IMG/VR virus record: IMGVR_UViG_3300025917_000486
Coordinates: 1-29,605 of that record
DNA: 29,605 nt
From: a virus
Direction: 5' to 3' (one strand)
Shown here: positions 13,554 to 27,771 of the stretch, one piece after another
Layout of the letters: the number at the start of each line of letters is the position of its first letter
Numbering within the stretch: the stretch's first letter is position 1
Position numbers and translations under genes: made by a program
Notes under the pieces: model-generated
The model's database searches: none
What the model was told of the DNA's origin: nothing
Seen by the model: only the letters and a program-made list of their open reading frames with translations

Positions 13554-13859
13554 TCAGTCGATGTGGCGGCCGATGTACTCGACCTCGATGACCTTGACCT
13601 CTTCACCCTGTTCGCCGTACGCCCACAGGATGCGCTCGCCGCCGGGGCCGATGCGGATGTACGAGATCCACAGGTCGTCGCGGTTTCCGAAGCGGGGCTC
13701 GGGCTTCATCCGGTGCGTGTTCAGACCGGGATGGGCCGGATTGTCGGCCAGCTTCTCCAGCGCGGACTGGACCTGTTTCAACTTGCCCCGGTCGCCGGAC
13801 TTGCGGATCTTCTTGATCCCCTTCTCGGCGGCCGGGGTGATCTCCAGCGTGAACCTCAT
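13554..13859 (-). CDS. Probable toxin, RelE/ParE-like
   Basis: A 101-residue basic protein with a RelE/ParE-type pattern: an N-terminal strand (MRFTLEITPAAEKGIKKI), two helices rich in Lys/Arg (VQSALEKLADNP), then the antiparallel strands DDLWISYIRIGPGGERILWAYGEQGEEVKVIEV. The ISYIRIxxxxERILWAY and VKVIEV pieces are the recurrent signature strands of this toxin superfamily, which includes mRNA interferases and gyrase inhibitors. A four-base ATGA overlap joins it to the upstream 106-aa gene, the usual antitoxin-first order. Calling it a toxin is inference from fold pattern and context; it could be an inactive relative. Confidence 0.65.
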   Translation of the reverse strand: MRFTLEITPAAEKGIKKIRKSGDRGKLKQVQSALEKLADNPAHPGLNTHRMKPEPRFGNRDDLWISYIRIGPGGERILWAYGEQGEEVKVIEVEYIGRHID

Positions 13860-14176
13860 GCCGCGTCCCCCCAGATCAGCGCACTCAGGTCAGCCGGGGT
13901 GGAAATCCGGCGCCCCCAGTCCCCCGCACTGCGGGACGCGCGGTTGTCCTGCACGGCCTGCGCCGCCTCGACCGCGCCGCGCTGGCCGAACGCCTCCTCC
14001 GGAGACAGCACCGGCCGAACAGCGGTCAGGTCCAGCAGTTCGCGCTCACTGATCACGACCGAGGGCGTCAGCGTGATCACGCCGTCCCCGTCGACCGTCA
14101 CCGCGTACTGCCGGTCCTGAACCACCCGGTTCAGGTTGATCCGGCCGCGCGAGTCCGGCGACACCAGGATGACCAT
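13856..14176 (-). CDS. Probable antitoxin, AbrB/SpoVT-like
   Basis: A 106-residue protein starting at ATG 14176 behind GGGAGGGAGAG. The first 45 residues (MVILVSPDSRGRINLNRVV, then QYAVTVDGDGVITLTPSVV) fit the swapped-hairpin AbrB/SpoVT DNA-binding fold. A longer C-terminal tail (EAFGQRGAVEAAQAVQDNRAS) could bind the downstream toxin. The gene overlaps the toxin by four bases. Two inverted repeats lie in its leader, which would suit autoregulation by the antitoxin. Family identity is by pattern only. Confidence 0.6.
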   Translation of the reverse strand: MVILVSPDSRGRINLNRVVQDRQYAVTVDGDGVITLTPSVVISERELLDLTAVRPVLSPEEAFGQRGAVEAAQAVQDNRASRSAGDWGRRISTPADLSALIWGDAA

Positions 14177-14193
14177 GGTCTCTCCCTCCCACT

Positions 14194-14222
14194 GGTGGGC
14201 CGCGCCCACCTCCTATGAGGAG
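14194..14222 (-). promoter_or_regulatory. Inverted repeats in the antitoxin leader (candidate operator)
   Basis: Two inverted repeats lie between promoter and start: GGTGGGC / GCCCACC (14194-14210, 3-nt loop) and CTCCT-ATG-AGGAG (14210-14222). They could be a DNA operator for an autoregulating antitoxin or an RNA hairpin. Confidence 0.45.
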
Positions 14223-14255: not shown

Positions 14256-14630
14256 TCAGACGGCGATGCCCACCGACGCGACCACCGAGCCCGCGTACTC
14301 GTCGGTGACCGTGAACTCCCGGCTGAGCACGGCTGCGATCCGCTTGAGGAGCGCCCGCTGCTCGAACTCCATCGACTCGTTGTGGATCCGGCACTGCGGG
14401 CACGTCGGGGGGAGGCCGCGCTTCAGACCCTCCATGATCTTCGCGCCGAGCGTCCTGCTGCGGCATCCCTCGCAGTCGTAGTGGTGCCGGTGAACCGAGG
14501 TCGTCACCGTCAGGCGGTCGGCCGACGGGTATACGTCCAGGTGGACATGCTCATTGCTGCGGACCCCCTCCGTGTACAGCAGATCCTTCACCGCGTTCAC
14601 CTTGCGGTCCGCCGCGTCCATCGCTCCCAT
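14256..14630 (-). CDS. Zinc-ribbon-like protein, 124 aa
   Basis: A 124-residue protein with two CxxC pairs, CEGC (in HHYDCEGCRSRTLG) and CPQC (in PPTCPQCRIHNES), about 25 residues apart with nearby histidines. That spacing fits a zinc ribbon or treble-clef-type site. The N-terminal half is an alpha/beta stretch (RLTVTTSVHRHHYD). Start ATG 14630 is used; ATG 14621 is possible. The GGAGAGG ribosome-binding site lies inside the 3' arm of a hairpin (14639-14672), so translation may be regulated. A nucleic-acid-binding or adapter role is inferred. Confidence 0.7.
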   Translation of the reverse strand: MGAMDAADRKVNAVKDLLYTEGVRSNEHVHLDVYPSADRLTVTTSVHRHHYDCEGCRSRTLGAKIMEGLKRGLPPTCPQCRIHNESMEFEQRALLKRIAAVLSREFTVTDEYAGSVVASVGIAV

Positions 14631-14638
14631 GATCTCAT

Positions 14639-14672
14639 CCTCTCCGTCGGGGCCCATTCCCCAACGGAGAGG
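14639..14672 (-). promoter_or_regulatory. Leader hairpin enclosing the ribosome-binding site
   Basis: CCTCTCCGT-GGGG / CCCC-ACGGAGAGG stem with one C-A mismatch and a short loop. On the minus strand the GGAGAGG ribosome-binding site of the gene at 14256-14630 is in the 3' arm, so folding would hide it. Confidence 0.5.
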
Positions 14673-14701
14673 ATATCAGCGGATCTTGATGGCCTGGGCC
14701 G
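14670..14701 (-). promoter_or_regulatory. Promoter with GGCCCAGGCC element for the zinc-ribbon gene
   Basis: On the minus strand CGGCCCAGGCCATCAAG (from 14701) leads into TGATATCC, a probable -10. It sits between the stop at 14704 and the leader hairpin and matches the element at 11535. Confidence 0.5.
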
Positions 14702-14703
14702 AA

Positions 14704-14979
14704 TCAGGAGGACCAGGGCCACGCGTCAGTCTCGGTGCGCACCAGGTACTGCCGGTTCGCGTTCACCGTCACACCGGGATATGCCGCCTCCATCGACGCC
14801 TTCCAGGCGCCCATCGCCGCCTCGGCTGCCGCGTCCTCGTTCTCCGTCACCGTCGAGCCGAAGCCGTTCGTGAGCGGGAAGGTCTGCTCGATGCCGGTGT
14901 CCACCGGGTTCTCGGGGTCCGTGTCGTTGAACAGCCACAGCCGGTACGTGACGGCGTAGGCGCCGGTCGGTATTGCCAT
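14704..14979 (-). CDS. Hypothetical protein, 91 aa
   Basis: A 91-residue protein, MAIPTGAYAVTYRLWLFND, starting at ATG 14979 with GGAGG 6 nt upstream; an in-frame TTG two codons earlier is possible. It looks beta-rich at the N-terminus and helical in the middle (EDAAAEAAMGAWKASMEAAYPGVTV). No known family. It is the rightmost gene of the leftward arm and lies against the divergent control region. A TAGGGT box upstream of the start may be its promoter. Confidence 0.65.
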   Translation of the reverse strand: MAIPTGAYAVTYRLWLFNDTDPENPVDTGIEQTFPLTNGFGSTVTENEDAAAEAAMGAWKASMEAAYPGVTVNANRQYLVRTETDAWPWSS

Positions 14980-15445
14980 GATCAACCTCCAGTCGGGGAA
15001 ACCCGGCCACCCTACTTCTCACGTACGCCTTCAGGCCCCTGCGGCTCGCAGGCGGCCGACTGCGCTCGCCGACCACCCGAGGGGCGCCGCACCCGCCACC
15101 GGCCCGCAGCCGGGCGCCCAGCCACCTTCCTGCCTCACCCGCAGCGCGAGCCCCGCCAGCACCCCGCACCCGGCAGACAACAGAAGCCCAGAGGTCTTTC
15201 GAGCGCAGCGAGTCCATCCCTCCTCCGGCGGCGCGGAGCGCCGACGCGCTGAGGACGACGATGAAGGCTTGGCGGAAGACAGGTCAGGTGCGGGCCGGTG
15301 GGTGGGGAACCCACTCCGGCATGTGCCTGGCATGGCTGGAGCCAAGCCTGAAGAGGAGGACTTCTAGATACTTCTATAGGGGGTGGAAAATCGACGTTTC
15401 CCCAGGTCAGGTGGGCTACCGACTCTGTCATTTTCTGCCAGGGAC

Positions 15446-15471
15446 GTTGACCTCATATGGTCAACCATATG
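15446..15471. repeat. Nested inverted repeats in the AT-rich core
   Basis: GTTGACC-TCATAT-GGTCAAC (15446-15465; 7-bp arms, 6-nt spacer) overlaps CATATGGT-CA-ACCATATG (15454-15471; 8-bp arms, 2-nt spacer). Both are perfect. They look like operator half-sites or an initiator-binding site. Confidence 0.7.
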
Positions 15472-15653
15472 GCCTACTTTGGCAACGAGAGGTCAAGGGT
15501 ATTTCATGGCAAATTTGGACATCTCTACTAGCGTGAACATGTCATCAATGTGACCCCGCTCTCCCTGTCGCACCCTTCTCATACGCGGATAGAGGGAGTA
15601 CCTTCTGGTGGACAAGGGGGCGACTTCTAGCTGCACTGCCGAGATCATTCTGC

Positions 15654-15659
15654 TAGAGT
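15654..15659 (+). promoter_or_regulatory. Promoter -10 of the first rightward gene
   Basis: TGCTAGAGT with TAGAGT at 15654-15659, 27 nt upstream of ATG 15686. The -35 candidate at 17 bp (CTGCAC) is weak. Confidence 0.45.
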
Positions 15660-15685
15660 CGCAACTACGGAAAGGAGTGACCGGC

Positions 15686-16081
15686 ATGGGACACGAGGCC
15701 AGCGTCATCGACGCGACCCTGATGAACGAGTTCGGGCAGTACGCCCAGACGGCGCCGTTCCCCATCTGGGTGGTGGCGAAGCTCAGCGAGGAGTTCGAGG
15801 CCCTGGGCCTGTACGCGCGGATCGCCTCCGCCGCGACGATGGAGGACTCCGACAGGATGCGCGTCACCATCTCGAAGGACTGGGCCGACGCCCTGTTCGG
15901 CGAGGACGGCGAGTGGAAGAAGCCAATGCAGTTCCTGCTGGACATCGAGGCGATCACGAAGGTCGCCGTGTACCGCAGCGGCAAGGTCCGGCTTCAGATG
16001 GAGGCGTACCCGCCCGACATCCGCGACGAGCTGGACGCTTACCGGCGCCCGAACGGCAAGCTGGTGGCAGCCTTCTCCTGA
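15686..16081 (+). CDS. Hypothetical protein, 131 aa, first rightward gene
   Basis: A 131-residue acidic protein starting at ATG 15686 behind an ideal GGAAAGGAG. It is mainly helical (DATLMNEFGQYAQ, KLSEEFEALGLYARIAS), with a beta-like end (ITKVAVYRSGKVRLQMEAYPP). No known motif or membrane segment. The in-frame extension to 15608 crosses the promoter and is rejected. As the first gene after the divergent region and just before the replication genes, an early regulatory or replication-linked role is possible, but not shown. Confidence 0.7.
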   Translation: MGHEASVIDATLMNEFGQYAQTAPFPIWVVAKLSEEFEALGLYARIASAATMEDSDRMRVTISKDWADALFGEDGEWKKPMQFLLDIEAITKVAVYRSGKVRLQMEAYPPDIRDELDAYRRPNGKLVAAFS

Positions 16082-16090
16082 GAAAGGAGA

Positions 16091-16114
16091 AGGCCCCAGC
16101 GTGAACTGGGGCCT
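16091..16114 (+). terminator. Hairpin terminator/attenuator
   Basis: Perfect 9-bp stem AGGCCCCAG / CTGGGGCCT with a 6-nt loop, 10 nt after the stop at 16081. No T-run follows, so it may only reduce read-through into the replication genes. Confidence 0.5.
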
Positions 16115-16152
16115 CGATCAAGCAAACTGACTGAAAGGTTACAGCGGAAGCC

Positions 16153-17097
16153 ATGTCGGATTCAAGGCACTTCACCGTGGTCGACGACTGGGTGCTGCTG
16201 CACCCGGACGTGACGTCCACCGAGTACCGGATCTACTCGATCATCAAGGGCAACCTGAAGCACACCCACGGAGGTGTGCCCGAGACCGGCTTCCGCGCGA
16301 CCGCCGCCTGGGTCAACGAGATCTCCAACGGCCTCGTGTCGGTGAGCACTGCGCACAAGGCGATGCAGGCCCTGGCTAAGAAGGGAATCCTGCGCAGGCT
16401 CAACAACCCGCAGTCCGGCGAGGGTGCCGACTTCGAGTTCGTCGTGGTGCCGCCGGAGGAGTACGCCGGACCCAAGAGCGTGATGGCCGAGGCCGCCGCG
16501 ATCAGCAAAAAGAAGAGCCGCAGCGTGGTCTTCGTGACGGTGCCGCTGAACCGCAGGCCCCGTAAGGGCGCCCGCCAGCAGGAAGCGCAGGCGCAGGCGA
16601 TCGTCCTCATGGACGAAGAGGCCGAGGAGCCGGAGCCCGAGTTCGACATGTCGGCCCTGGAGGATTCCGGGCCGACCGGCGCCGAGGCGGAGTTCGTCGT
16701 CGAGCTGGAAGAGATCACCGCACGGAACACCGAGCCCCGGCTGCGCCTGATGTCGGCCGCCTGCGAGCGTGTTGCCGCTGCGGTGCGCCCGGCGTTGGAG
16801 GCCGGATGGAACCCGCGCGAACTGGCGCTGCGGATGGCGGCCGAGCTGAACCCCCGGGTCAATGCCCCGGAGCGACTGCTGATCAGCAAGGCGGGGGACC
16901 TTGGCAAGCCGCCGAAGACGCGCACCGTGATGCCCGAGGCACCGAAGGAAGACGACCAGCTCAACCGGTACGTGCCGCCGAAGCAGTTCCACCAGCGGCC
17001 CGGCCTGGACATCAGCCCCGAGGAGCAGGAGAAGATCGACGCGAGGCTGCGTGAGTACCAGGCCCAGCGTGACCGGGCCAACCTGCTGAAGAGCTGA
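16153..17097 (+). CDS. Winged-helix-like replication protein (possible helicase loader)
   Basis: A 314-residue protein. Residues about 10-95 look like a winged-helix DNA-binding domain of the replication-initiator or DnaD type: STEYRIYSIIKGNLKHT, then a turn and recognition-type helix VSTAHKAMQALAKKGILRRL, a basic strand pair and FEFVVVPPEEY. A charged, acidic linker (about 150-180) follows, then a second helical domain with LRLMSAACERVAAAVRPALEAGWNPRELALRMAAEL. A Gln/Glu-rich tail ends the protein. It stands 23 nt before the DnaB-type helicase gene, so a role in origin recognition or helicase loading is inferred. The ribosome-binding site before ATG 16153 is weak. Confidence 0.65.
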   Translation: MSDSRHFTVVDDWVLLHPDVTSTEYRIYSIIKGNLKHTHGGVPETGFRATAAWVNEISNGLVSVSTAHKAMQALAKKGILRRLNNPQSGEGADFEFVVVPPEEYAGPKSVMAEAAAISKKKSRSVVFVTVPLNRRPRKGARQQEAQAQAIVLMDEEAEEPEPEFDMSALEDSGPTGAEAEFVVELEEITARNTEPRLRLMSAACERVAAAVRPALEAGWNPRELALRMAAELNPRVNAPERLLISKAGDLGKPPKTRTVMPEAPKEDDQLNRYVPPKQFHQRPGLDISPEEQEKIDARLREYQAQRDRANLLKS

Positions 17098-17120
17098 AGA
17101 AACGGATAAGGAGAACAAAC

Positions 17121-18482
17121 GTGGGTGAAGTACGCGCCATTGCGGGCGGAACCATGGTCGACCCGCACGCGGAGACGGCCGTTCTGGGGGAACTGCTCGT
17201 CTCCGACGGCCACCCGCTCGACTGTCGTGACGAAGTCACCGACATCCTGCGGGACGCCGGGCCGGAAGTGTTCCACGACCCGCTGAACCGCAAGGTGTAC
17301 GAGGCGTTCCTGTCCTGCTTCATCGACGGCGGCCACACCGACCCGGTGGCGGTCGTCGGCGCCCTGCGGCAGGAGGGGGAGCTGACCGCCGAGCTGTTCG
17401 ACCACGTGCACAGCCTGCCGTCGAAGGCCGGGAACCTCGCGGCCTCGCACGGCGGGGCGCGGAGCCTGCTCGACCTGTACCGGCGGCGCATGCTGCACAA
17501 GGTGCTGGTGGAGTCCTCCGGCCGGGTCCAGGCGGGCGGCGGGTCCTACGGCGAGATCGCCGGGGAGGTCTCGGTGGTGGTGTCGGAGGTCATCGACACC
17601 TCCACGAAGGTGGAGACCACCTTCTCCGCATCGCAGGTCTCCGAGGCTGCCCTGGGGCACATCCTCCACGGGCGGACCATGGAGAAGGGCATCCCGATGG
17701 GGCTGCACGACATCGACGAACTGACCGGCGGCATGCGGCTGGGCCAGTTCATCGTGATCGCCGGGCGGCCCGGCCACGGCAAGACCACCGTCGGCGCCCA
17801 GGTCGCGCGGAACGTGGCGCACCAGGGGATGGCCACGGAGATCTTCTCGTTGGAGATGCCGAAGGAGGAGCTGGGCCAGCGCAACGCGTCGGCCGAGACC
17901 GGCATCCCCTTCGAGGACATCCGTGACGGCCGGGTGGACGCCGAGGCGATCGAGCGACTGATCGAGTACGACGCCAGCCAGGCCGACTACCCGATGACGG
18001 TCGACGACGACCCGGGCCAGACGCTCGGAGAGATCGCGCTGAAGGTCCGCAAGTCGGCCCGGGAGAAGGGTGCGAAGGTCTTCGTGATCGACTACCTCCA
18101 GCTCGTGAAGCCGGACAAGCCGACCGGCAACCCGACGGTGGACGTGGCGATCGTCTCGGAAGGGCTGCGCAGGCTGGCCCGTACGCTCCGGGTCATCATC
18201 ATCGCGCTGGCTCAGCTCAACCGTGAGTCGGCCGGTCGCGACGACGGCAAGCCGAAGCTGACCGACCTGCGCCAGTCCGGCCAGATCGAGCAGGACGCGA
18301 ACGTGGTCATCCTGGTCCACCTGCCGTTCAAGATCGATCCCGACACGGCGCGCGGCAAGGAGGCCGACCTGATCCTCGCGAAGAACCGAGGGGGCAAGAC
18401 GGCCGAGCGGGTGATGCTGTTCGACGGCGCCCACAGCCGGTTCCTCAACCCGTCCGACATGCTCGCCGGGATCTCGTCGTGA
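17121..18482 (+). CDS. dnaB-like: DnaB-type replicative DNA helicase
   Basis: A 453-residue hexameric-type replicative helicase, close to bacterial DnaB length. An N-terminal DnaB domain (about 14-120; HAETAVLGELLVSDG) precedes a linker helix (LLDLYRRRMLHKVL), then the RecA-like core. Walker A is GRPGHGKT (215-222). A conserved glutamate is in SLEMP (E245), Walker B is VFVIDYLQLV with D324, AQLNRES contributes Q365, and KNRGGKT (421-427) matches the DnaB arginine-finger motif. GTG 17121 follows AAGGAGAAC. It unwinds DNA at the fork with the downstream primase. Its stop overlaps the next start as GTGA. Confidence 0.95.
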   Translation: MGEVRAIAGGTMVDPHAETAVLGELLVSDGHPLDCRDEVTDILRDAGPEVFHDPLNRKVYEAFLSCFIDGGHTDPVAVVGALRQEGELTAELFDHVHSLPSKAGNLAASHGGARSLLDLYRRRMLHKVLVESSGRVQAGGGSYGEIAGEVSVVVSEVIDTSTKVETTFSASQVSEAALGHILHGRTMEKGIPMGLHDIDELTGGMRLGQFIVIAGRPGHGKTTVGAQVARNVAHQGMATEIFSLEMPKEELGQRNASAETGIPFEDIRDGRVDAEAIERLIEYDASQADYPMTVDDDPGQTLGEIALKVRKSAREKGAKVFVIDYLQLVKPDKPTGNPTVDVAIVSEGLRRLARTLRVIIIALAQLNRESAGRDDGKPKLTDLRQSGQIEQDANVVILVHLPFKIDPDTARGKEADLILAKNRGGKTAERVMLFDGAHSRFLNPSDMLAGISS

Positions 18483-18925
18483 TCACGGGAGAGTTCCTGG
18501 TCTGCGACGATCTCGGTCCGCTCGGACGGCTGGCTCCGCCCGGCGACCTCTTCGTGATGGAGCCCCGGGACGTCAGCCTCGTGATCTCCGAACGCAAGTG
18601 GATCAACGAAAAGTACCTGGAGGCCGACGGGAAGGCCGAGAAGTACCGGAAGTGGCTGAAGACGGCCCACCTGCGGGGACGGCGTGACGCGATCCGGGAA
18701 TGGTTCGACATCTGGACCATCGAGGCTGCGAAGTACGCCGTCTGCGACGGCTGGCTGCTGAGCGTCGTCGGCCTGCTGGAGATGGGCAAGCAACAGGCGA
18801 TGAACGTGCCGAAGAACTTCTCGTACAACGGCTTCGGCCCGATCCGCGAGCTGACGAAGAAGGTTGTCGAGGCGACCGACGAGGAGATCATCGGGGGCGC
18901 CCGGTTCCGGGCGAAGCTCCGGTAG
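18479..18925 (+). CDS. Hypothetical protein, 148 aa
   Basis: A 148-residue protein starting at GTG 18479, overlapping the helicase stop by four bases. It has a basic N-terminal half (ERKWINEKYLEADGKAEKYRKWLKTAHLRGRRDAIREWF) and a helical C-terminal part. No membrane segment; no known motif. Translational coupling to dnaB suggests a role in replication, such as a helicase accessory factor, but this is inference from position. Confidence 0.7.
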   Translation: MITGEFLVCDDLGPLGRLAPPGDLFVMEPRDVSLVISERKWINEKYLEADGKAEKYRKWLKTAHLRGRRDAIREWFDIWTIEAAKYAVCDGWLLSVVGLLEMGKQQAMNVPKNFSYNGFGPIRELTKKVVEATDEEIIGGARFRAKLR

Positions 18926-18934
18926 AAGCGCGAA

Positions 18935-18969
18935 GGCCAGGCGTCCGGTGTCCACCGGATGGCCTGGCC
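18935..18969 (+). terminator. Terminator of the helicase operon
   Basis: GGCCAGGC / GCCTGGCC outer stem and CCGGT / ACCGG inner stem with a 4-nt loop, 9 nt after the stop at 18925. Bases downstream are CCCACTTCC, without a T-run. Confidence 0.6.
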
Positions 18970-18998
18970 CCACTTCCTGCCCCTCGTGGGGCGGCATG

Positions 18999-19015
18999 TA
19001 GAGTATGGCAGCCAT
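18999..19015 (+). promoter_or_regulatory. Upstream promoter of the tandem pair (P1)
   Basis: ATGTAGAGTATGG with -10 TAGAGT at 18999-19004, overlapped by ATGGCAGCCAT (19005-19015), a variant palindrome near the expected start point. It precedes the UUCG hairpin at 19026-19053. Confidence 0.5.
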
Positions 19016-19025
19016 GGGTGACGGG

Positions 19026-19053
19026 TGGCAAGCCCCTTTCGAGGGGCTTGCCA
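19026..19053 (+). terminator. Hairpin with UUCG tetraloop
   Basis: Perfect 12-bp stem TGGCAAGCCCCT / AGGGGCTTGCCA closed by TTCG, a very stable tetraloop. It lies between promoters P1 and P2, so it may end a short P1 RNA. Confidence 0.65.
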
Positions 19054-19054
19054 G

Positions 19055-19083
19055 TAGAAGTGGCCCAGGCCATGTAGTAGGCT
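19055..19083 (+). promoter_or_regulatory. Promoter P2 with TGGCCCAGGCCA operator
   Basis: TGGCCCAGGCCA (19061-19072) lies at the start of the 17-bp spacer before -10 TAGGCT (19078-19083). The -35 position (TAGAAG) is poor, which suggests dependence on, or repression by, a factor bound at the palindrome. Confidence 0.6.
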
Positions 19084-19085
19084 GT

Positions 19086-19114
19086 GGGTGAACCAAGTTG
19101 ATGTTGGTTCACCC
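19086..19114 (+). promoter_or_regulatory. Leader hairpin before the degenerate DnaB-like gene
   Basis: Perfect 11-bp stem GGGTGAACCAA / TTGGTTCACCC with a 7-nt loop, just downstream of the P2 -10 and 18 nt before ATG 19133. It would form at the 5' end of the transcript and may stabilise the message. Confidence 0.5.
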
Positions 19115-19132
19115 CTCGGAAAGGGTGAAGAG

Positions 19133-19669
19133 ATGGTTGTGTCTGTGGGGCCCATCGCTCTGGCGCGGCCCGGATGGGGACTGAAGGAGGGCGCGGTCAC
19201 GTCGCTTGTGTCGAACGACTCGGGAGGCAGGCCGGACGTCCTCTGCGCGCAGATGCTGCTGAACGCGGCGATCTGCGGAATGAAGGTGCTCGTGCTGCTG
19301 CCGGGGCTTCGGTCCGACGACGAGGTGTGGTCATCGGTCGGCCAGATCCTGGGCGGCGGGGACGGGCGCATGGCGGCCAAGGAGATGCGCCATCTGCGAC
19401 TCGTCATGTACGCCTCCGGCACCGGCCGGGAGCACGTTAACAAGGCTGAGCTGGTGTACGCTCCTGGACTCAGCCCCTCCGAACTCGGCCGCCTCAGCGA
19501 TGAGACGACGGCCCCGATCCTGACCCTCGCCGACCTCGAAAGCGAGACGGCGAAGCGGCTGTCCAGCGAAGTGATCCGCGTCGGCGGCGACACGATCGTC
19601 TACGACGCCGAGGGCTTCGAGGTTCCTGTCGTGTTCGACCCGAGCGGTCCGGTCTATCGCCCGGCATGA
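19133..19669 (+). CDS. Degenerate DnaB/RecA-like protein, Walker A lost
   Basis: A 178-residue protein starting at ATG 19133 behind GGAAAGGG. Residues about 22-70 align by eye with the helicase core of the neighbouring DnaB gene: VTSLVSNDSGGRPDVLCAQ with the helicase's IVIAGRPGHGKTTVGAQ, then NAAICGMKVLVLLPGLRSDDE with NVAHQGMATEIFSLEMPKEE. The shared AQ, N, A, GM positions suggest common ancestry. The GKT of Walker A is replaced (GGRPDV), so ATP binding is probably lost. It could be a helicase-interacting regulator or an evolutionary remnant. The remainder (80-178) is unremarkable alpha/beta. The relationship is my own inference and needs a profile search. Confidence 0.6.
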   Translation: MVVSVGPIALARPGWGLKEGAVTSLVSNDSGGRPDVLCAQMLLNAAICGMKVLVLLPGLRSDDEVWSSVGQILGGGDGRMAAKEMRHLRLVMYASGTGREHVNKAELVYAPGLSPSELGRLSDETTAPILTLADLESETAKRLSSEVIRVGGDTIVYDAEGFEVPVVFDPSGPVYRPA

Positions 19670-19680
19670 TGGTCGTCGCA

Positions 19681-19701
19681 CGCCCCGCTACCGGTGGGGC
19701 G
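19681..19701 (+). terminator. Short hairpin before primase
   Basis: CGCCCC / GGGGCG stem with a 9-nt loop, 11 nt after the stop at 19669 and about 30 nt before ATG 19733. No T-run; probably a weak attenuator in the shared message. Confidence 0.4.
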
Positions 19702-19732
19702 TACGCGGCGCCCGGTGAGAGAGGTTGTGCGA

Positions 19733-21259
19733 ATGGCACGAGGGTCAGGACTCAGGAACGTACTCGCGGCGCTGGACAGGAGCGGAAGTCGGGTCAAGCA
19801 GCACGGTGGGTACTACACCGCCCAGTGCCCGGCACACGAGGACCGGAACGCTTCCCTCAGCATCACCCAGGGCGAGAAGGGCGCGGTGCTCAACTGTCAC
19901 GCCCGGTGCGCCACCGACGACATCCGCATCGCGCTCGACCTCAACTGGCCCGACCTGTTCGACAACGGCGGCCAGATGGGGGACGAGGACCGTCAGCTCG
20001 CGGCCGACCTGTGGATGCCCTGCCAGAAGAACGGCTGCGGCGGCCACAAGTCGGCCGAGTACCGGTATTCGGACGAGAACGGGAACTTCCTCTACGCGGT
20101 CGCGCGGTGCTCGCGCAAGGGTGACGGCTGCCCGCAGCCGTTCGCCCAGTGGGTGCCGGACGCCAGCAAGAAGTTCGGTAAGAAGTGGGGTCTGCCCTCC
20201 TCGGTGCGCCGGGTGCTCTACAACCTGGCGAAGGTGATCGAGGCGGCGAAGGCCGGGCGCCGGATCTGGCTCATGGAGGGCGAGAAGGACGCCGACCGGA
20301 TGAGGCGGGACTTCCCCGATGAAGCGGTGACGACCATCGTCTCGGGTGCGGGCAAGTCGAAGTGGCGGCTGGAGTACGGCCGCTACTTCAAGGGCGCCTC
20401 CGAGGTGATCATCGTGGCCGACTGCGACCGCACCGGCCTGGAGTTCGCCGAGGAGGTGCACAAGCACCTGAGCAATGTGGTGACCAAGGTCAAGGTGGTG
20501 TGCTCGCCGCTCATGGCCGACGGCGCCGACTTCTCCGATCACCGTGATCACGGATTCGGTCTCGACGAGTTCGAGATCGTGCCCTTCACGCCGATCAAGA
20601 AGCGGCCCGAGATGGTGATCCTGGTCGAGGAGGAGCACCGCGAGAAGCCAGTGGTGTTCAGCGGCTTCAGTCAGGAGTCCGTCGAGCGCAGCCTGGTCGG
20701 ATCGATTCTGCGGTACGGCCACTCCTACGGGATCGCCGAGGTCGACATCCAGACCGACAGCCGCATGAACGTGATCATCAAGGCGGCTGCCCGGCTGGCC
20801 CGGCAGGAGAACGTGATCACGCCGGACATGGTGGCGGCCGAGGTTGAGGAGATGGGGGTAAGCACCTTCGAGAAGGTGCTGCCCTACGCCCTCGAACTGG
20901 AAGCGGTCGCCTTCGACGACACGACCAAGCCGCTCGTCGCAGCGCGCATCCTGCGGGAGCGCACCATGCGTCGGATGCTGGCGCTTGTCAGCCGGGCCAC
21001 CGAGTCGGCGGCCCAGGATGAGAAGAGGCCGCTGGATCAAATCCTTGCCGAGGTCGGCCGGACGGCGGAACGGATGAACGAGGAGTACGTCTCGCTGGAG
21101 CGCGAGTACTGCGAACCGGTCGGCGACGTGTTCACCGGGGACGTCCTCGAAGAGATCGTCATGATGGAAGAGATCGAGCAGGAGAAGACGAACGTCACCC
21201 CGATGCACCCGAAGAAGCAGGGTGTGACGTACCGGCCCAGGGCGGTCCAGGGAAGCTGA
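19733..21259 (+). CDS. DNA primase with CHC2-type zinc finger, TOPRIM and DnaB-N-like C-terminus
   Basis: A 508-residue primase. A CHC2-type zinc finger is formed by C32-x2-H35 (CPAH) and C55-x3-C59. A second Cys cluster (C97, C102, C126, C133) follows. The TOPRIM catalytic domain has E182 and E184 in MEGEKDA, and D230/D232 in ADCDRTG. It makes RNA primers for the DnaB-type helicase encoded upstream. The C-terminal part (about 312-450) resembles the N-terminal domain and linker helix of DnaB (ESVERSLVGSIL; ARILRERTMRRMLALV), as in bacterial DnaG, where this region binds the helicase. ATG 19733 follows AGAGAGG; the in-frame extension upstream has no better site. Confidence 0.92.
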   Translation: MARGSGLRNVLAALDRSGSRVKQHGGYYTAQCPAHEDRNASLSITQGEKGAVLNCHARCATDDIRIALDLNWPDLFDNGGQMGDEDRQLAADLWMPCQKNGCGGHKSAEYRYSDENGNFLYAVARCSRKGDGCPQPFAQWVPDASKKFGKKWGLPSSVRRVLYNLAKVIEAAKAGRRIWLMEGEKDADRMRRDFPDEAVTTIVSGAGKSKWRLEYGRYFKGASEVIIVADCDRTGLEFAEEVHKHLSNVVTKVKVVCSPLMADGADFSDHRDHGFGLDEFEIVPFTPIKKRPEMVILVEEEHREKPVVFSGFSQESVERSLVGSILRYGHSYGIAEVDIQTDSRMNVIIKAAARLARQENVITPDMVAAEVEEMGVSTFEKVLPYALELEAVAFDDTTKPLVAARILRERTMRRMLALVSRATESAAQDEKRPLDQILAEVGRTAERMNEEYVSLEREYCEPVGDVFTGDVLEEIVMMEEIEQEKTNVTPMHPKKQGVTYRPRAVQGS

Positions 21260-23565: not shown

Positions 23566-23640
23566 AGGGATATAGCTCAGTTCGGCCAGAGCAGCCGTCT
23601 CCAAAGCGGCGTGTCGTAGGTTCAAATCCTGCTATCCCTG
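23566..23640 (+). tRNA. tRNA-Trp (CCA)
   Basis: Complete cloverleaf: acceptor AGGGATA/TATCCCT, D stem GCTC/GAGC, anticodon loop CTCCAAA (CCA), T-arm GTAGG-TTCAAAT-CCTGC, G discriminator. No encoded CCA. Confidence 0.95.
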
Positions 23641-23642
23641 CT

Positions 23643-23683
23643 GGTTCCCCGGGGTTACAACCCCCCCGTCACCCTGGGGAACC
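23643..23683 (+). terminator. Inter-tRNA hairpin
   Basis: GGTTCCCC / GGGGAACC stem of 8 bp with a 25-nt loop, between tRNA-Trp and tRNA-Pro. It may be a processing or stabilising hairpin. Confidence 0.4.
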
Positions 23684-23689
23684 TTCAAT

Positions 23690-23764
23690 CGGAATGTGGC
23701 TCAGCTTGCGTAGAGCACTCGCTTCGGGAGCGAGAGGTCGCGGGTTCAAATCCCGCCATTCCGA
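23690..23764 (+). tRNA. tRNA-Pro (CGG)
   Basis: Acceptor CGGAATG/CATTCCG, anticodon stem CTCGC/GCGAG with loop TTCGGGA (CGG), T-arm GCGGG-TTCAAAT-CCCGC, A discriminator. Confidence 0.93.
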
Positions 23765-23766
23765 CT

Positions 23767-23832
23767 GGACTCCGGGCGGCGTATCGGAAGTACCTCTTTC
23801 CCTTACGACGTCGTCCACTCCGCCCGGAGTCC
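23767..23832 (+). other. Long inter-tRNA hairpin
   Basis: Perfect 13-bp stem GGACTCCGGGCGG / CCGCCCGGAGTCC with a 40-nt loop, starting 3 nt after tRNA-Pro. Likely folded in the tRNA precursor and possibly an RNase III-type processing site. Confidence 0.45.
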
Positions 23833-23863
23833 GCAGTTCCCGCTGCCGCCAGGTCTACAGCCT

Positions 23864-23949
23864 GGGAATCGCGAGGTTGGTGTCTCGCAAAGGGAGGAAC
23901 CTGTCCATCGATCCAGCGGGTGGTCGATTAAAGATCGGGCAGGATTCTC
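23864..23949 (+). other. Possible three-way-junction RNA
   Basis: Three stems fit one junction: GGGAAT/ATTCTC (with a G-U), GCGAG-8 nt-CTCGC (a D-arm-like hairpin with GTTGGTGT loop), and CCTGTCC/GGGCAGG enclosing a further stem with a 7-nt loop AGCGGGT. The ~86-nt size is tRNA-like, but there is no T-arm. It could be a decayed tRNA or a chance fold. Confidence 0.3.
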
Positions 23950-23955
23950 CCGACA

Positions 23956-24030
23956 GAACTCCGGGGCCTAGCGTTGTTTCTCAGCTCGCTATCCCATGCA
24001 AGTCTGCGTCCCTCCTAGGACCCGGAGTTC
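23956..24030 (+). other. Long hairpin before tRNA-Thr
   Basis: GAACTCCGGG / CCCGGAGTTC, 10 bp perfect, plus inner CCTAG/CTAGG, ending 2 nt before tRNA-Thr. The arm CTCCGGG recurs from the hairpin at 23767. Confidence 0.4.
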
Positions 24031-24032
24031 AT

Positions 24033-24105
24033 GCCTCCGTAGCTCAGTCGGTAGAGCGCCGTCTTCGTAAGTCGGATGCCATCGGTTCAATTCCGGTCGG
24101 GGGCT
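24033..24105 (+). tRNA. tRNA-Thr (CGT)
   Basis: Acceptor GCCTCCG/CGGGGGC with one T-G pair, D stem GCTC/GAGC, loop TTCGTAA (CGT), T-arm ATCGG-TTCAATT-CCGGT, T discriminator. One T-T mismatch in the anticodon stem. Confidence 0.85.
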
Positions 24106-24110
24106 CGCAG

Positions 24111-24184
24111 ATCCCTGTAGCTCAGTCGGTCAGAGCACTCCCCTCATAAGGGAAAGGCCACTGGTTCAAGTCCAGTCAGGGATA
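24111..24184 (+). tRNA. tRNA-Met (CAT)
   Basis: Acceptor ATCCCTG/CAGGGAT, anticodon loop CTCATAA (CAT), T-arm CTGG-TTCAAGT-CCAG, A discriminator. It lacks the initiator GGG stem, so elongator Met or lysidine-modified Ile are both possible. One C-A mismatch at the base of the anticodon stem. Confidence 0.85.
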
Positions 24185-24188
24185 CGAA

Positions 24189-24225
24189 GGTGCGGCGCGG
24201 ACTCATAATCCGTAAGCCGTATGCC
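24189..24225 (+). pseudogene. tRNA-Met-like anticodon-arm remnant
   Basis: CGGA-CTCATAA-TCCG (24198-24212) is a perfect anticodon arm with the same CTCATAA loop as the adjacent tRNA-Met, and flanking bases can extend the stem. The D arm, T arm and normal acceptor are missing. It looks like a truncated duplicate or a tRNA mimic. Confidence 0.5.
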
Positions 24226-24268
24226 AGCAGAAGGATCGGGAGGACAGAACCGGCCGGACGCTAGGCAG

Positions 24269-24304
24269 ACCCCTGGTGGAACGCTGTCCCGGGAAACCAG
24301 GGGT
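24269..24304 (+). other. Hairpin upstream of the 40-aa gene
   Basis: Perfect 9-bp stem ACCCCTGGT / ACCAGGGGT with an 18-nt loop in the segment between the tRNA remnant and GTG 24341. Confidence 0.4.
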
Positions 24305-24340
24305 TCCTGTTGGAATCGGGACAAGAAAGAAGGTGCGATC

Positions 24341-24463
24341 GTGAGCTGTAAGTGCAAGGCTCGGACGTACGAAGGGCACCTGAAGAAGGTGCAGAAGGAC
24401 GGATACCCCGTCCACGTCTACACGGGCCACTACTGGGGCCCCAAGGACGACAGACAGAACTGA
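24341..24463 (+). CDS. Small protein, 40 aa, inside the tRNA array
   Basis: A 40-residue frame starting at GTG 24341 behind AAGAAGG. The sequence is basic with a CKC pair near the N-terminus (MSCKCKARTYEGHLKKVQK) and a histidine/aromatic stretch (YPVHVYTGHYWGPK). It lies 8 nt before tRNA-Lys. The good ribosome-binding site and gene-like third positions support coding; the function is unknown. Confidence 0.55.
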   Translation: MSCKCKARTYEGHLKKVQKDGYPVHVYTGHYWGPKDDRQN

Positions 24464-24470
24464 AGAACGC

Positions 24471-24543
24471 GCGCCCTTAGCTCAGTTGGCAGAGCAGGGG
24501 ATTCTTAATCCTCGTGTCACTGGTTCAAGTCCAGTAGGGCGTA
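24471..24543 (+). tRNA. tRNA-Lys (CTT)
   Basis: Acceptor GCGCCCT/AGGGCGT (terminal G-T), D stem GCTC/GAGC, loop TTCTTAA (CTT), T-arm ACTGG-TTCAAGT-CCAGT, A discriminator. Confidence 0.92.
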
Positions 24544-24546
24544 CTG

Positions 24547-24581
24547 CCGCATCCTCACGGCTTCCTGGGGCTTGGATGCGG
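24547..24581 (+). other. Inter-tRNA hairpin
   Basis: Perfect 8-bp stem CCGCATCC / GGATGCGG with a 19-nt loop, 4 nt after tRNA-Lys. Confidence 0.4.
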
Positions 24582-24633
24582 TCGGCCTGGATCCTGCCTT
24601 GGTCACGCTTGGCGCGAAGGGTGAAAGGCTGAT

Positions 24634-24707
24634 GGAGGTGTGGCCCAGTTGGATGGGGCAGCCGACTACGGATCGGAAGGACGGGGGTTCGAATCCCTCC
24701 ATCTCCA
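24634..24707 (+). tRNA. tRNA-Arg (ACG)
   Basis: Acceptor GGAGGTG/CATCTCC with one G-T pair, D stem GCCC/GGGC, loop CTACGGA (ACG), T-arm with TTCGAAT, A discriminator. First anticodon-stem pair is a G-A mismatch. ACG would need A34 deamination to read all CGN codons. Confidence 0.85.
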
Positions 24708-24730
24708 CGAGACCCCCTGACGGGTCTATC

Positions 24731-24777
24731 GGGAGCCCCGCCGTAAGGCGGAGGCCGGGAAAGCGGGGCTCCCTTTT
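24731..24777 (+). terminator. Rho-independent terminator inside the tRNA array
   Basis: Stem GGGAGCCCCGC / GCGGGGCTCCC (11 bp) with a GC inner stem, followed by TTTT. It is the only strong T-run terminator in the array, so the array may be two or more transcripts. Confidence 0.7.
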
Positions 24778-24802
24778 CAACTCAACAGCGGTAAGAAGCA
24801 AT

Positions 24803-24876
24803 GGTCTCGTGGCTCAGTTCGGCAGAGCACTCGGTTGTCATCCGAGAGGTCGCGGGTTCAAATCCCGTCGGGACCG
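24803..24876 (+). tRNA. tRNA-Asp (GTC)
   Basis: Acceptor GGTCTCG/CGGGACC (T-G at one position), loop TTGTCAT (GTC), anticodon stem CTCGG/CCGAG, T-arm GCGGG-TTCAAAT-CCCGT, G discriminator. Confidence 0.94.
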
Positions 24877-24897
24877 CTGGCTTCGGAGGCAGATTCC

Positions 24898-24933
24898 GGT
24901 GGAGTTCGTGGCTCACAAGGCCACTATCCACCG
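24898..24933 (+). other. Inter-tRNA two-stem hairpin
   Basis: Outer GGTGGA/TCCACC and inner GTGGC/GCCAC stems with a 7-nt loop. The 150-nt stretch 24877-25027 holds no complete tRNA and no convincing gene; only short hairpins are visible. Confidence 0.4.
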
Positions 24934-25027
24934 GGCAGAGAGTGAGGCAAAGCGAGTCCATGAGCCAACCTTCTCCGGGAGGCGAGTGGAGGGCGGCCCC
25001 TGCCCAGCTATACATCAAGGGGTGCAA

Positions 25028-25103
25028 GGCCCTGTAGCTCAGTTCGCGAAAGAGCGCTCGCCTGAAAAGCGAGAGGTCGCCCGTTCAAATCGGGCCGGGG
25101 CCA
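25028..25103 (+). tRNA. tRNA-Phe (GAA)
   Basis: Acceptor GGCCCTG/CGGGGCC, anticodon stem CTCGC/GCGAG with loop CTGAAAA (GAA), T-arm GCCCG-TTCAAAT-CGGGC, A discriminator. Confidence 0.94.
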
Positions 25104-25107
25104 CTGG

Positions 25108-25195
25108 CCGGACGGTAAGCTATCAACGCAGCCCCACTGTGGCGGGTGGGACATACATGCGAAGATAGTCCATGCGTGGAAGCATTGCCGTCCGG
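25108..25195 (+). other. Long inter-tRNA hairpin
   Basis: Perfect 8-bp outer arms CCGGACGG / CCGTCCGG with a ~72-nt inner region that contains a CCCAC/GTGGG stem. It bridges tRNA-Phe and tRNA-Gln. Confidence 0.4.
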
Positions 25196-25327
25196 TTGCC
25201 AACAATTCAAGAGCGATCCCCCGTAGGTTAATTGGCAGACCGCCGGTCTCTGGAATCGGAAGTTTTGGTTCAAGTCCAGACGGGGGAGCGTGCACGTGGC
25301 GGAGATAGGAGTGCGGTCCGGTTGCCA
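25190..25327 (+). repeat. 12-bp direct repeats flanking tRNA-Gln
   Basis: GTCCGGTTGCCA occurs at 25190-25201 and 25316-25327, on either side of tRNA-Gln, with a 126-bp period. It may mark duplication or insertion of the tRNA unit. Confidence 0.6.
25217..25288 (+). tRNA. tRNA-Gln (CTG)
   Basis: Acceptor TCCCCCG/CGGGGGA, D stem GGTT/GACC, anticodon stem CCGGT/ATCGG with loop CTCTGGA (CTG), T-arm TTTGG-TTCAAGT-CCAGA, G discriminator. Confidence 0.9.
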
Positions 25328-25344
25328 TCCGCCCGACAACCGGA
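25317..25344 (+). other. Inter-tRNA hairpin
   Basis: Perfect 8-bp stem TCCGGTTG / CAACCGGA with a 12-nt loop between tRNA-Gln and tRNA-Asn. Confidence 0.4.
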
Positions 25345-25423
25345 ACAGTTGAGAAGCGCAGCAGAACAAGGTCGGTGCGCCGCGTGGTGCTAGGGATGAG
25401 GCCCACTACAATTTCAGATTCGA

Positions 25424-25496
25424 TCTCCTGTAGCTCAACCGGCAGAGCGCCGGATTGTTAATCCGGATGTTACTGGTTCAAGTCCAGTCAGGAGAG
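25424..25496 (+). tRNA. tRNA-Asn (GTT)
   Basis: Acceptor TCTCCTG/CAGGAGA, anticodon stem CCGGA/TCCGG with loop TTGTTAA (GTT), T-arm ACTGG-TTCAAGT-CCAGT, G discriminator. Confidence 0.94.
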
Positions 25497-25565
25497 CGTG
25501 TGCCGACGACACCATATCCTTCCGTGGTCTGAAAAACCCGGTCGGAATTACAGTCGGTGGTAAAG

Positions 25566-25587
25566 GACCGCATTGCGCAGTGCGGTC
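25566..25587 (+). other. Hairpin before the unusual tRNA-like gene
   Basis: GACCGCA / TGCGGTC, 7 bp perfect with an 8-nt loop, ending right before 25588. Confidence 0.35.
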
Positions 25588-25685
25588 GCGCGTGTAAGGG
25601 AACTCCGAGTCAGAGCCCGGCGAACAGGGCACTCGGAAAGGCCCTGTGGAGACGTCCAGTGCAGGTTCGATCCCTGCCTCGCGCA
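25588..25685 (+). ncRNA. Non-canonical type II tRNA-like RNA
   Basis: A clear T-arm (GCAGG-TTCGATC-CCTGC, 25661-25677) is followed by CTCGCGC plus A, which pairs with 5' GCGCGTG at 25588 with one T-T mismatch. A small variable-type hairpin TGGA-GACG-TCCA precedes the T-arm. CAGGGC/GCCCTG can act as anticodon stem, but its loop ACTCGGAAAG is 10 nt and the D arm is abnormal. It looks like a degenerate or unusual Ser-type tRNA. No anticodon is called with confidence. Confidence 0.45.
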
Positions 25686-25744
25686 CTTGGGAACAACCGT
25701 GCCTGAACAGCTTGGAGGGGTGATGGACATCGTCACCGGATTCA

Positions 25745-25773
25745 CCTAGGTCCGCGAAATTCGCGGCCCTAGG
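25745..25773 (+). promoter_or_regulatory. Hairpin overlapping the ribosome-binding site
   Basis: CCTAGG (25745-25750) pairs with CCTAGG (25768-25773) around a CCGCGA/TCGCGG stem. The AGGAGG site (25771-25776) of the next gene overlaps the 3' arm, so folding could block translation. It may also end upstream transcripts. Confidence 0.5.
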
Positions 25774-25786
25774 AGGATGAATTCCG

Positions 25787-26182
25787 ATGGGCAAGACGAC
25801 GCATCACACGCCCGGAAAGTTCGACCAGCGCGACTGGCCTGACGGCTACAGGATGTACTGGCGCAAGCGGCCGATCACTCCGGTGCGCGAGCACGAGGTC
25901 TACGACCTGCGCTACAGCGCTGCGGAACTCCGTGACGCCGAGAGGCAGGGCCGCAGGCCGCAGCCCCGGAAGGTGAGGCGTACCGCTCGCTGGTGGACCT
26001 ACACCGGGGCCTGGACCCCCAGTTCCAGCCGGACCTACTGGGCTGGTAAGCACGAGCGCGCCAACCGGCGCTACGTGAAGAGCAAGCTGGAAGCCGGGCG
26101 CCGCACGAAGGGCGAACTCGAACGTCGGCTGTACGAGAAGGCCGAGAAGGTTCCTCGCCGGATGCTGTACGACATCTGGTGA
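25787..26182 (+). CDS. Basic hypothetical protein between tRNAs, 131 aa
   Basis: A 131-residue strongly basic protein starting at ATG 25787 with AGGAGG upstream. It is rich in Arg, Lys, Trp and Tyr (WRKRPITPVREHEVYDLRYSAAEL, RRTARWWTYTGAW, ERANRRYVKSKLEAGRRTKGELERRL). That composition fits an RNA- or DNA-binding protein, but no domain is recognised. It lies inside the tRNA array, so a link to tRNA handling is conceivable, though only its position suggests it. A hairpin covers part of the ribosome-binding site. Confidence 0.7.
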   Translation: MGKTTHHTPGKFDQRDWPDGYRMYWRKRPITPVREHEVYDLRYSAAELRDAERQGRRPQPRKVRRTARWWTYTGAWTPSSSRTYWAGKHERANRRYVKSKLEAGRRTKGELERRLYEKAEKVPRRMLYDIW

Positions 26183-26191
26183 GAGAGGAAA

Positions 26192-26264
26192 GCTCCTGTA
26201 GCTCAGGGGATAGAGCGCCGGATTCCGGATCCGGATGTCGCAGGTTCAATTCCTGCCAGGAGCA
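26192..26264 (+). tRNA. tRNA-Arg (CCG)
   Basis: Acceptor GCTCCTG/CAGGAGC, anticodon stem CCGGA/TCCGG with loop TTCCGGA (CCG), T-arm GCAGG-TTCAATT-CCTGC, A discriminator. Last clear tRNA of the array. Confidence 0.93.
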
Positions 26265-26408
26265 CGGCGGTGCCTGCGGAAATCCTTACTCCGCTTGGGC
26301 AGGGTGAGGCCAACTCCAGTGATCTGCGTGGCAGCTCTCCTGGTGAAAGATCCCCTGCGGTCGTAGTAGGCGACCCCCGCATTCTCGTATCGGAGAGGAA
26401 AAGGAAAA

Positions 26409-26726: not shown

Positions 26727-27250
26727 GCGGCGTGGCGGAGTACAAGGCAGGGGTCATCAAGCACGCTGGGGCCTGGTTCAAGCTGCGCGTGAACGACGAC
26801 GGTGACTGGCTGACCGAGGTGGACGGCCGCGACCTGAAGCAGCCCACCAGGGCCAAGCTGGTCGCCGATATCGACCGCGTGATGCGCGTGAAGAAGAAGG
26901 CCGTCAACATCCCCATCACGGTGGTCGAGAGCAAGAACAACGGCTACCTCAAGGTGAAGCACGGCGTCGTCACCGGCATCCACAGCGGGACCGGAAACCT
27001 GATGATCGCCTGGGACAGCGTGTCGGGTGGCGGCAACGGTCAGCTCACCGTCAGCACCACGGGCTACAGCAGCGACGAGGTGCTGCGCCGCCTGACGCCC
27101 AGCGAGGAGCAGGAGCTGGCCCGAGCGGTCAAGGAGGCGTACGACGCGGGCGAGTACATGCGGAACTACGTCAACCGCCTGCATGTCTACAAGGGCACCA
27201 AGGGTCTCGCCGACCAGGTTCAGGCCGAGCTGGAGAAGGGTGAGAAGTGA
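26723..27250 (+). CDS. Hypothetical protein, 175 aa
   Basis: A 175-residue protein starting at GTG 26723, overlapping the previous stop by four bases; GTG 26732 is a weaker alternative. It mixes beta-strands (WLTEVDGRDLKQPTRAKLV, VNIPITVVESKNNGYLKVKHG) with a helical C-terminus (SEEQELARAVKEAYDAGEYMRNYVNRL). It resembles no family I recognise. Spacing supports operon expression with its neighbours. Confidence 0.65.
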   Translation: MSGVAEYKAGVIKHAGAWFKLRVNDDGDWLTEVDGRDLKQPTRAKLVADIDRVMRVKKKAVNIPITVVESKNNGYLKVKHGVVTGIHSGTGNLMIAWDSVSGGGNGQLTVSTTGYSSDEVLRRLTPSEEQELARAVKEAYDAGEYMRNYVNRLHVYKGTKGLADQVQAELEKGEK

Positions 27251-27537
27251 TGACCTGGCAGGAGAAGAACCTGACGCGGGTCGAGGGCGCGACCGAGTTC
27301 CGCGACATCGTCATGACGTTGGACCGGGAGGGGTACGGCAACGGCCGCATCTACGTGCGCCGGGTCGGCACCGATCAGGTCTACCGGATCATCCCCCGCC
27401 ATACCGACCCGTTCCAGAAGATCACCTTCAGCGAGCTTTTCCTGTCCAACCATCCGCCGATCTACATGGAGGACTTCGCTCAGGCCATGATCGACGACAA
27501 GGACCGCAGCTTCCTCCTTGAGGTCTTCACCCGGTAG
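27250..27537 (+). CDS. Hypothetical protein, 95 aa
   Basis: A 95-residue protein starting at ATG 27250 (GTG 27247 is the alternative), sharing one base with the previous stop. It has a beta-like GRIYVRRVGTDQVYRIIPRH segment and a helical C-terminus with acidic residues (YMEDFAQAMIDDKDRSFLLEVF). No known motif. Operon member of unknown function. Confidence 0.65.
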   Translation: MTWQEKNLTRVEGATEFRDIVMTLDREGYGNGRIYVRRVGTDQVYRIIPRHTDPFQKITFSELFLSNHPPIYMEDFAQAMIDDKDRSFLLEVFTR

Positions 27538-27546
27538 GGAGGGGTC

Positions 27547-27771
27547 ATGTACGGCGAGTACTACGACGGAAGGCGCAAGCACCGGCCGATCAAGCGGCAG
27601 CCGCCGGGTCCCGAGGACATGCCGGACGAGGCGACGGCCGCACTGATCCGAGAGGCGATCGGCCGGTACCCGAAGGCGACGGCCGAAGAAGTGCGGATCT
27701 TCGTGAAGGAACTGGATCGCGGCCCCGAGTTCGACGTGAAGGCGATTCGCGCGGTCATGCACTTCGGGTAG
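27547..27771 (+). CDS. Hypothetical protein, 74 aa
   Basis: A 74-residue protein starting at ATG 27547 with GGGAGGGG upstream, 9 nt after the previous stop. It starts with a basic tyrosine-rich segment (MYGEYYDGRRKHRPIKRQPPGPEDMP), followed by two helices (EATAALIREAIGRYPKATAEEVRIFVKEL). It may bind nucleic acid or protein; no family recognised. It is the last gene before the terminator hairpin at 27817-27850. Confidence 0.65.
   Translation: MYGEYYDGRRKHRPIKRQPPGPEDMPDEATAALIREAIGRYPKATAEEVRIFVKELDRGPEFDVKAIRAVMHFG

Follow-up and report, generated by a model that had tools for sequence, protein, structure and literature searches.

A conserved divergent non-coding region as a candidate control region for the replication operon of BM-cluster Streptomyces phages

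What is the role of the non-coding DNA that separates two divergent operons beside the replication genes of a large phage? The window, by which we mean the whole stretch of DNA analysed (a virus record of 29,605 bases), contains such a divergent intergenic gap at 14980-15685, with a leftward gene starting at 14979 and a rightward gene starting at 15686. An earlier note had proposed this span as a candidate origin or master operator. A search with 14500-16200 gave Streptomyces phage Frankenweenie (OQ921725) as the best match, at 97.9% over the whole query (about 1.7 kb), while Satis, Quantum, EhyElimayoE and Kradal matched at 74% over 92%, and JustBecause and Kela at about 72% over 35%. Judged by this similarity, the window is part of the genome of a BM-cluster Streptomyces phage. 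Phages of this cluster have prolate heads and 184-200 kb genomes with 66-67% GC that end in direct repeats of about 1 kb (PMC10652959, PMC6687918); the announcement of Frankenweenie reports neither integrase nor repressor (PMC10652959). Each of the seven annotated relatives (Frankenweenie, Satis, Quantum, EhyElimayoE, Kradal, JustBecause and Kela) has a non-coding gap in the corresponding position, with one additional small leftward gene at its left edge in the Satis and JustBecause groups. Coding potential of 14980-15685 was rejected because alignment gaps between relatives break the reading frames, and a conserved gene inside the span, which the earlier note had said would speak against its proposal, is absent from the relatives examined. 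The features of the region are as follows.

14704-14979, - strand: gp197 of Frankenweenie, the first leftward gene, no family match (open reading frame with ribosome-binding site, annotated in relatives)
15009-15014, - strand: TAGGGT, a possible -10 of the leftward operon, tentative (sequence reading)
15038-15060, unstranded: GC-rich conserved block CCTGCGGCTCGCAGGCGGCCGAC, core present in all four clades
15201-15215, + strand: GAGCGCAGCGAGTCC, in relatives [G/A/C]AGCGAAGCGAnTCC, also present in hub R2
15265-15349, + strand: 85-nt imperfect hairpin of conserved structure, RNA or single-stranded DNA
15353-15366, + strand: purine-rich conserved element GAGGAGGACTTCTA, 3' of the hairpin
15396-15410, + strand: dispersed motif GTTTCCCCAGGTCAG, of the form GTTTCC[C/G]CAGGTCAG
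15446-15465, unstranded: inverted repeat 1, GTTGACC-TCATAT-GGTCAAC (7-N6-7), identical in five close phages
15454-15471, unstranded: inverted repeat 2, CATATGGT-CA-ACCATATG, absent as a conserved site in Satis and JustBecause
15468-15502, unstranded: block TATGGCCTACTTTGGCA..GAGGTCAAGGGTAT, conserved between the Frankenweenie and Satis clades
15651-15659, + strand: extended -10 promoter pattern TGCTAGAGT of the replication operon (from alignment of relatives)
15686-16081, + strand: gp198, predicted winged-helix-like protein (structure model, weak similarities)
16153-17097, + strand: gp199, putative replication initiator, weak (PHROG matches, model)
17121-18482, + strand: DnaB-type replicative helicase (family matches)
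19694-21259, + strand: DNA primase with zinc ribbon and Toprim (annotation in relatives, family matches)

Conservation was assessed in 60-base steps against two IMG/VR relatives (L016 and L020). The stretch 15240-15480 was 98-100% identical, whereas parts of the flanking genes were down to 70-92%: identity drops to 70-97% in the DNA of gp196 and gp197 and locally reaches 82% in gp198. The blocks conserved against Satis include GCGNAGCGANTCC, GGTGC.GGCCGGTGGG, GAGGACTTCTA..TACTTCTATAGGG, GTTTCC.CAGGTCAG, GACGTTGACCTC, TATGGCCTACTTTGGCA, AGGTCAAGGGTAT and TAGAGT. Probing for further relatives with GAGGAGGACTTCTACC yielded 20 contigs, two of which were the contigs behind L017 and L018. The best-conserved features, namely the hairpin (15265-15349), the motif (15396-15410) and the promoter pattern (15651-15659), had gone unnamed in the earlier note. 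Its description of the region as AT-rich suits the right half (15341-15685, 47.5% AT against 33.5% for the genome) but not the left half (14980-15340, 28%), which is more GC-rich than the genome. Likewise, the gap is indeed divergent, but it does not simply part two transcription arms, as gene strand changes many times along the Frankenweenie genome, which has another hub of about this size at 29327-30163.

The hairpin has counterparts at the same place, of 85 nt in Satis and Kradal, 86 nt in JustBecause, Kela and the relative L018, and 91 nt in L021, which represents a fourth clade (gp198 35% identical). Across the four clades, the folding energy of the + strand was -55 to -62 kcal/mol (z = -5.8 to -11), against -40 to -46.5 kcal/mol for the - strand, an advantage of 15 to 21 kcal/mol in three clades and 11 in L021. 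The outermost eight pairs are standard pairs in 32 of 32 cases, with differing letters, and the outer stems AGGCUUGG/CCAAGCCU, GUAGCUGG/CCAGCUAC, GAGGUGUC/GGCACCUC and AGAGAGGG/CCCUCUCU are fully paired. RNAalifold returned 7 pairs with double-sided changes from an automatic alignment that misplaces the outer stem. The hairpin thus displays the compensatory changes that mark a conserved structured nucleic acid. When G.U and A.C were scored alike, which makes the count strand-neutral, the stems of three clades held 13 G.U and no A.C on the + strand. Because G.U occurs without A.C and the + strand is the more stable, the + strand is, on this pairing pattern, the one under selection, acting as RNA or single-stranded DNA. 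The same asymmetry disfavours the hairpin as a leader of the leftward operon (- strand). In the Frankenweenie genome, the hairpin apex is found at this place and nowhere else; matches at Satis 26991 (- strand) and in JustBecause (to the hairpin's other arm) were not extra copies with the same context.

The overlapping perfect inverted repeats that the earlier note had placed at 15446-15471 are present at exactly these coordinates and exceed chance: two overlapping repeats of this size arose with a frequency of 0.0005 in 2000 dinucleotide shuffles of 15341-15685, and of 0.005 in 600 shuffles of the whole span. The search for the same repeats in relatives, which the note had suggested, found both identical only among the closest phages. 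Satis keeps the left half of repeat 1 in an imperfect dyad, repeat 2 not being conserved, neither repeat is recognisable in JustBecause, and L021 has different palindromes, GGGTAAGCCCTTACCC and AGGTACCCATGGGGGGTACCT, at the same place. The palindrome is single-copy in the window and, allowing up to 3 mismatches, in Frankenweenie. A position that is kept while the sequence changes between clades would fit a phage-coded DNA-binding protein co-evolving with its target, and the clade-specific palindromes are probably candidate sites of such a protein.

The right edge of the region carries the TGNTAGAGT pattern in Frankenweenie, Satis and JustBecause. This pattern occurs six, seven and five times in the respective genomes, and all six Frankenweenie copies lie in gaps directly upstream of genes. 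In Satis and JustBecause, TGCTAGAGT also stands at the left edge of the gap, pointing left, instead of TAGGGT. A scan for part of the Streptomyces promoter types returned no consensus sigma-70 promoters.

The motif GTTTCC[C/G]CAGGTCAG is common to the region under study (R1) and two further non-coding hubs of the genome: R2, a second divergent gap (Frankenweenie 29327-30163, Satis 26744-27581, JustBecause 23925-24799), and R3, a non-coding stretch just inside the right terminal repeat that carries the motif chiefly on the - strand. R2 is a large divergent hub ahead of a rightward block that reaches the tail genes, not the replication genes. Several of the pieces of R1 recur there in the same order, namely GAGCGAAGCGA..TCC, a + strand hairpin rich in GC, GAGGAGGA, TTCCGCAGGTCAGG and then a palindrome, CAATGTCGACATTG; the hairpin differs in sequence from that of R1, and the pieces are not equally clear in every relative. 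CAGGTCA was the top enriched 7-mer in the three hubs of Frankenweenie (10 seen against 0.72 expected, p 5e-9 uncorrected), which is confirmation and not discovery, since the motif had been spotted by eye and the hubs chosen by hand before the count. As it is common to three hubs, the motif is probably read by one factor acting at all three and is a candidate target of that factor. R3 also contains two perfect TGTGACCTGCGTCACA palindromes (Frankenweenie OQ921725 198536-198551 and 198781-198796; Satis 185181 and 185427; an altered copy in JustBecause at 182787) that fit the general Crp consensus TGTGA-N6-TCACA, and use of host Crp by the right-end hub is possible.

The conservation, the structure, the shared motif and the promoter pattern are direct observations. 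We propose, with a probability of about one in two, that this span of a lytic BM-cluster phage acts in cis to control the replication operon. Initiation of both operons would be under its control, namely the rightward one for replication (gp198, the initiator-like gp199, DnaB and primase) and the leftward one. The extended -10 promoter TGCTAGAGT at the right edge, of a type for host RNA polymerase, would fire the replication operon. Upstream of it would lie the protein sites, that is, the clade-specific palindromes (GTTGACC..GGTCAAC here), which a phage-coded protein probably binds, together with a copy of GTTTCC[C/G]CAGGTCAG for the factor acting at all three hubs. Further upstream, the + strand hairpin could function as single-stranded DNA or as RNA, in the latter case as a small RNA or as a leader affecting polymerase or the stability of RNA. 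The identity of the binding protein, transcription of the hairpin and the direction of regulation are what we infer. A control region accounts for most of the observations, mainly because R2 has modules in common with R1 but no replication genes; modules common to hubs of different function favour transcription control. Against it, the promoter scan found none on the + strand upstream of the hairpin, promoters at both edges leave the interior upstream of both, so that a leader role for the hairpin cannot be taken for granted, and a local skew minimum beside the hairpin, lacking in R2, fits an origin as well.

It is possible, as a second reading, that the span is a replication origin, in which gp199 (or gp198) would bind the palindromes, the AT-rich stretch would open, DnaB would be loaded and the + strand hairpin would be a single-strand initiation or primosome-loading structure. 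Palindromes that are clade-specific yet kept at one position, a structure selected on one strand and the AT-rich right half agree with this. So do the neighbours: the span adjoins replication genes, as the earlier note had said, with DnaB certain and primase well supported. The 131-residue gp198 has a winged-helix-like predicted fold (mean pLDDT 79) and is weakly similar to phage helix-turn-helix, replisome-organizer and initiator proteins (best E 0.007). For gp199, several members have weak PHROG matches to replication-initiation families (best 0.0025), and a low-confidence model has a winged-helix N-terminus weakly like plasmid initiators among other winged helices (E >0.03). Neither protein had a confident match among solved structures. 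A lambda-type or iteron origin likewise has an initiator-like gene, DnaB and primase adjacent, an AT-rich stretch and dyads. Unlike such origins, the BM span has no tandem iteron array: only short two-copy repeats were found in 14900-15800, and nothing iteron-like in 15600-19700.

The GC-skew check recommended in the earlier note gave a divided answer. Cumulative skew has a local minimum at 125169 in Frankenweenie, 115692 in Satis and 112758 in JustBecause, 23-44 bp before the hairpin starts (125208, 115715 and 112802), but the global minimum lies at the right end, in R3, in all three genomes (198440, 184981 and 182646), so that skew does not single out the span. R2, also divergent, has similar modules with neither replication genes nor a local minimum, which again argues against an origin. 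The local 300 bp belongs to the ten most AT-rich stretches of Frankenweenie, and the genome ends are richer still.

Several observations were made on the surrounding genes. The DnaB of the window (17121-18482) is 91% identical to that of Kela and 35-36% to those of JustBecause and Satis; as this is at odds with the 99% identity of the Kela and JustBecause intergenic regions, BM phages seem to have swapped the helicase gene. A perfect 11-bp inverted repeat, GGGTGAACCAAGTTGATGTTGGTTCACCC, lies at 19086-19114 (Frankenweenie 129029-129057) in the gp201/gp202 gap of the replication operon. Just left of the region, an antitoxin-like gene (weak PHROG match) and a RelE-like toxin gene occupy 13554-14209 on the - strand, the toxin being annotated in Frankenweenie, Satis, Quantum, Kradal and Kela. 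Eleven tRNA genes lie on the + strand at 23566-26265.

We consider it unlikely that the hairpin stands alone as a non-coding RNA, or acts as a nut- or put-type antitermination element, with the remaining span only serving its expression. The nut sites of lambda and the put RNA of HK022 combine an RNA hairpin with a linear motif and head operons. The BM element would resemble them in having a hairpin and a linear motif, but its hairpin is much longer than boxB. The covariation and strand bias of the hairpin would suit an RNA; however, the covariance models of Rfam 15 gave no match in 14980-15700 up to E = 2, the R2 hairpin differs in sequence, and the scan, with its part of the Streptomyces promoter types, found no consensus promoter on the + strand upstream of the hairpin. 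A precedent for RNA from such a place is the Pleft hub of cluster A mycobacteriophages (L5, D29), which makes abundant non-coding RNA (PMC5712189). The BM region is like the Pleft region, with its operator and stoperators, in being a non-coding promoter hub with protein-binding sites (candidate ones in BM) and related sites at several places. Cluster A sites, unlike the single-copy BM palindrome for which no repressor is reported, are asymmetric, number about 24 per genome and are bound by the repressor.

A master operator of a temperate immunity system is very improbable: palindromes do adjoin a promoter in a divergent arrangement, but the palindrome is single-copy where several copies would be expected, and neither repressor nor integrase is reported for Frankenweenie (PMC10652959). 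What endures of the earlier proposal of an origin or master operator is the place, with its conserved non-coding DNA, palindromes, replication genes and local skew minimum; the location of the global minimum and of the most AT-rich stretches at the genome ends, the lack of conservation of repeat 2 beyond the closest phages and the unreported repressor and integrase weigh against the functions proposed.

The motif extends beyond the BM phages. At least 120 IMG/VR contigs contain GTTTCC[C/G]CAGGTCAG[A/G], compared with 29 that contain the reversed pattern, and a longer form matched about 600 phage records, almost all from actinobacterial hosts. In most of 50 records sampled down the ranking, the motif lies no further than about 150 bp from the right end, almost invariably where no gene is annotated. 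The 20-mer CGTTTCCGCAGGTCAGAGGC, whose core matches the window copy at 15395-15411, occurs in at least 117 contigs of bacteria, almost all of them actinobacteria (L193-L272 among these contigs). In 90 bacterial copies, 21 have a hairpin-forming upstream arm and 26 lie beside tRNA-like sequence, and integrases are the commonest neighbour family. The upstream arm was seen in 0 of 82 viral copies, and a simple terminator hairpin, fitting about 21/90 bacterial and 0/82 viral copies, was rejected as an explanation. Repeats sharing a word of at least 12 flank 10 of the 82 viral copies against 1 of 64 control places. Elsewhere the contexts are other than that of the window: CGTTTCCGCAGGTCAGAGGC is found close to right ends, at integrase/tRNA junctions and near Prim-Pol or HNH genes, and in Obama12 (L310) between the integrase and excisionase genes. 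A sequence-based literature search returned no published description of CGTTTCCGCAGGTCAGAGGC; unrelated primers turned up, and one phiJoe attP primer contains CGTTCCCGCAGGTCAGAGC. As copies were picked by exact match, the core is invariant by construction, and what speaks for a function is the excess over control, the additional conserved letters in the flanks and the placement. A speculative and rather doubtful extension is that CGTTTCCGCAGGTCAGAGGC would be a cis element of actinobacteriophages and actinobacterial mobile-element ends, read by a factor common to Actinobacteria, which would mark each large BM hub and, with a dedicated hairpin, start the replication programme at the window.

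If the control reading is right, the span would provide defined, testable control parts (a promoter pattern, a structured + strand element and palindromes) beside the replication operon of very large Streptomyces phages with prolate heads, on which the literature found consists of genome announcements only. The motif reaches wider: many genomes of mycobacteriophages and of Gordonia and Streptomyces phages carry it near their right end, and a single binding or deletion experiment on it could explain a feature of many phages together.
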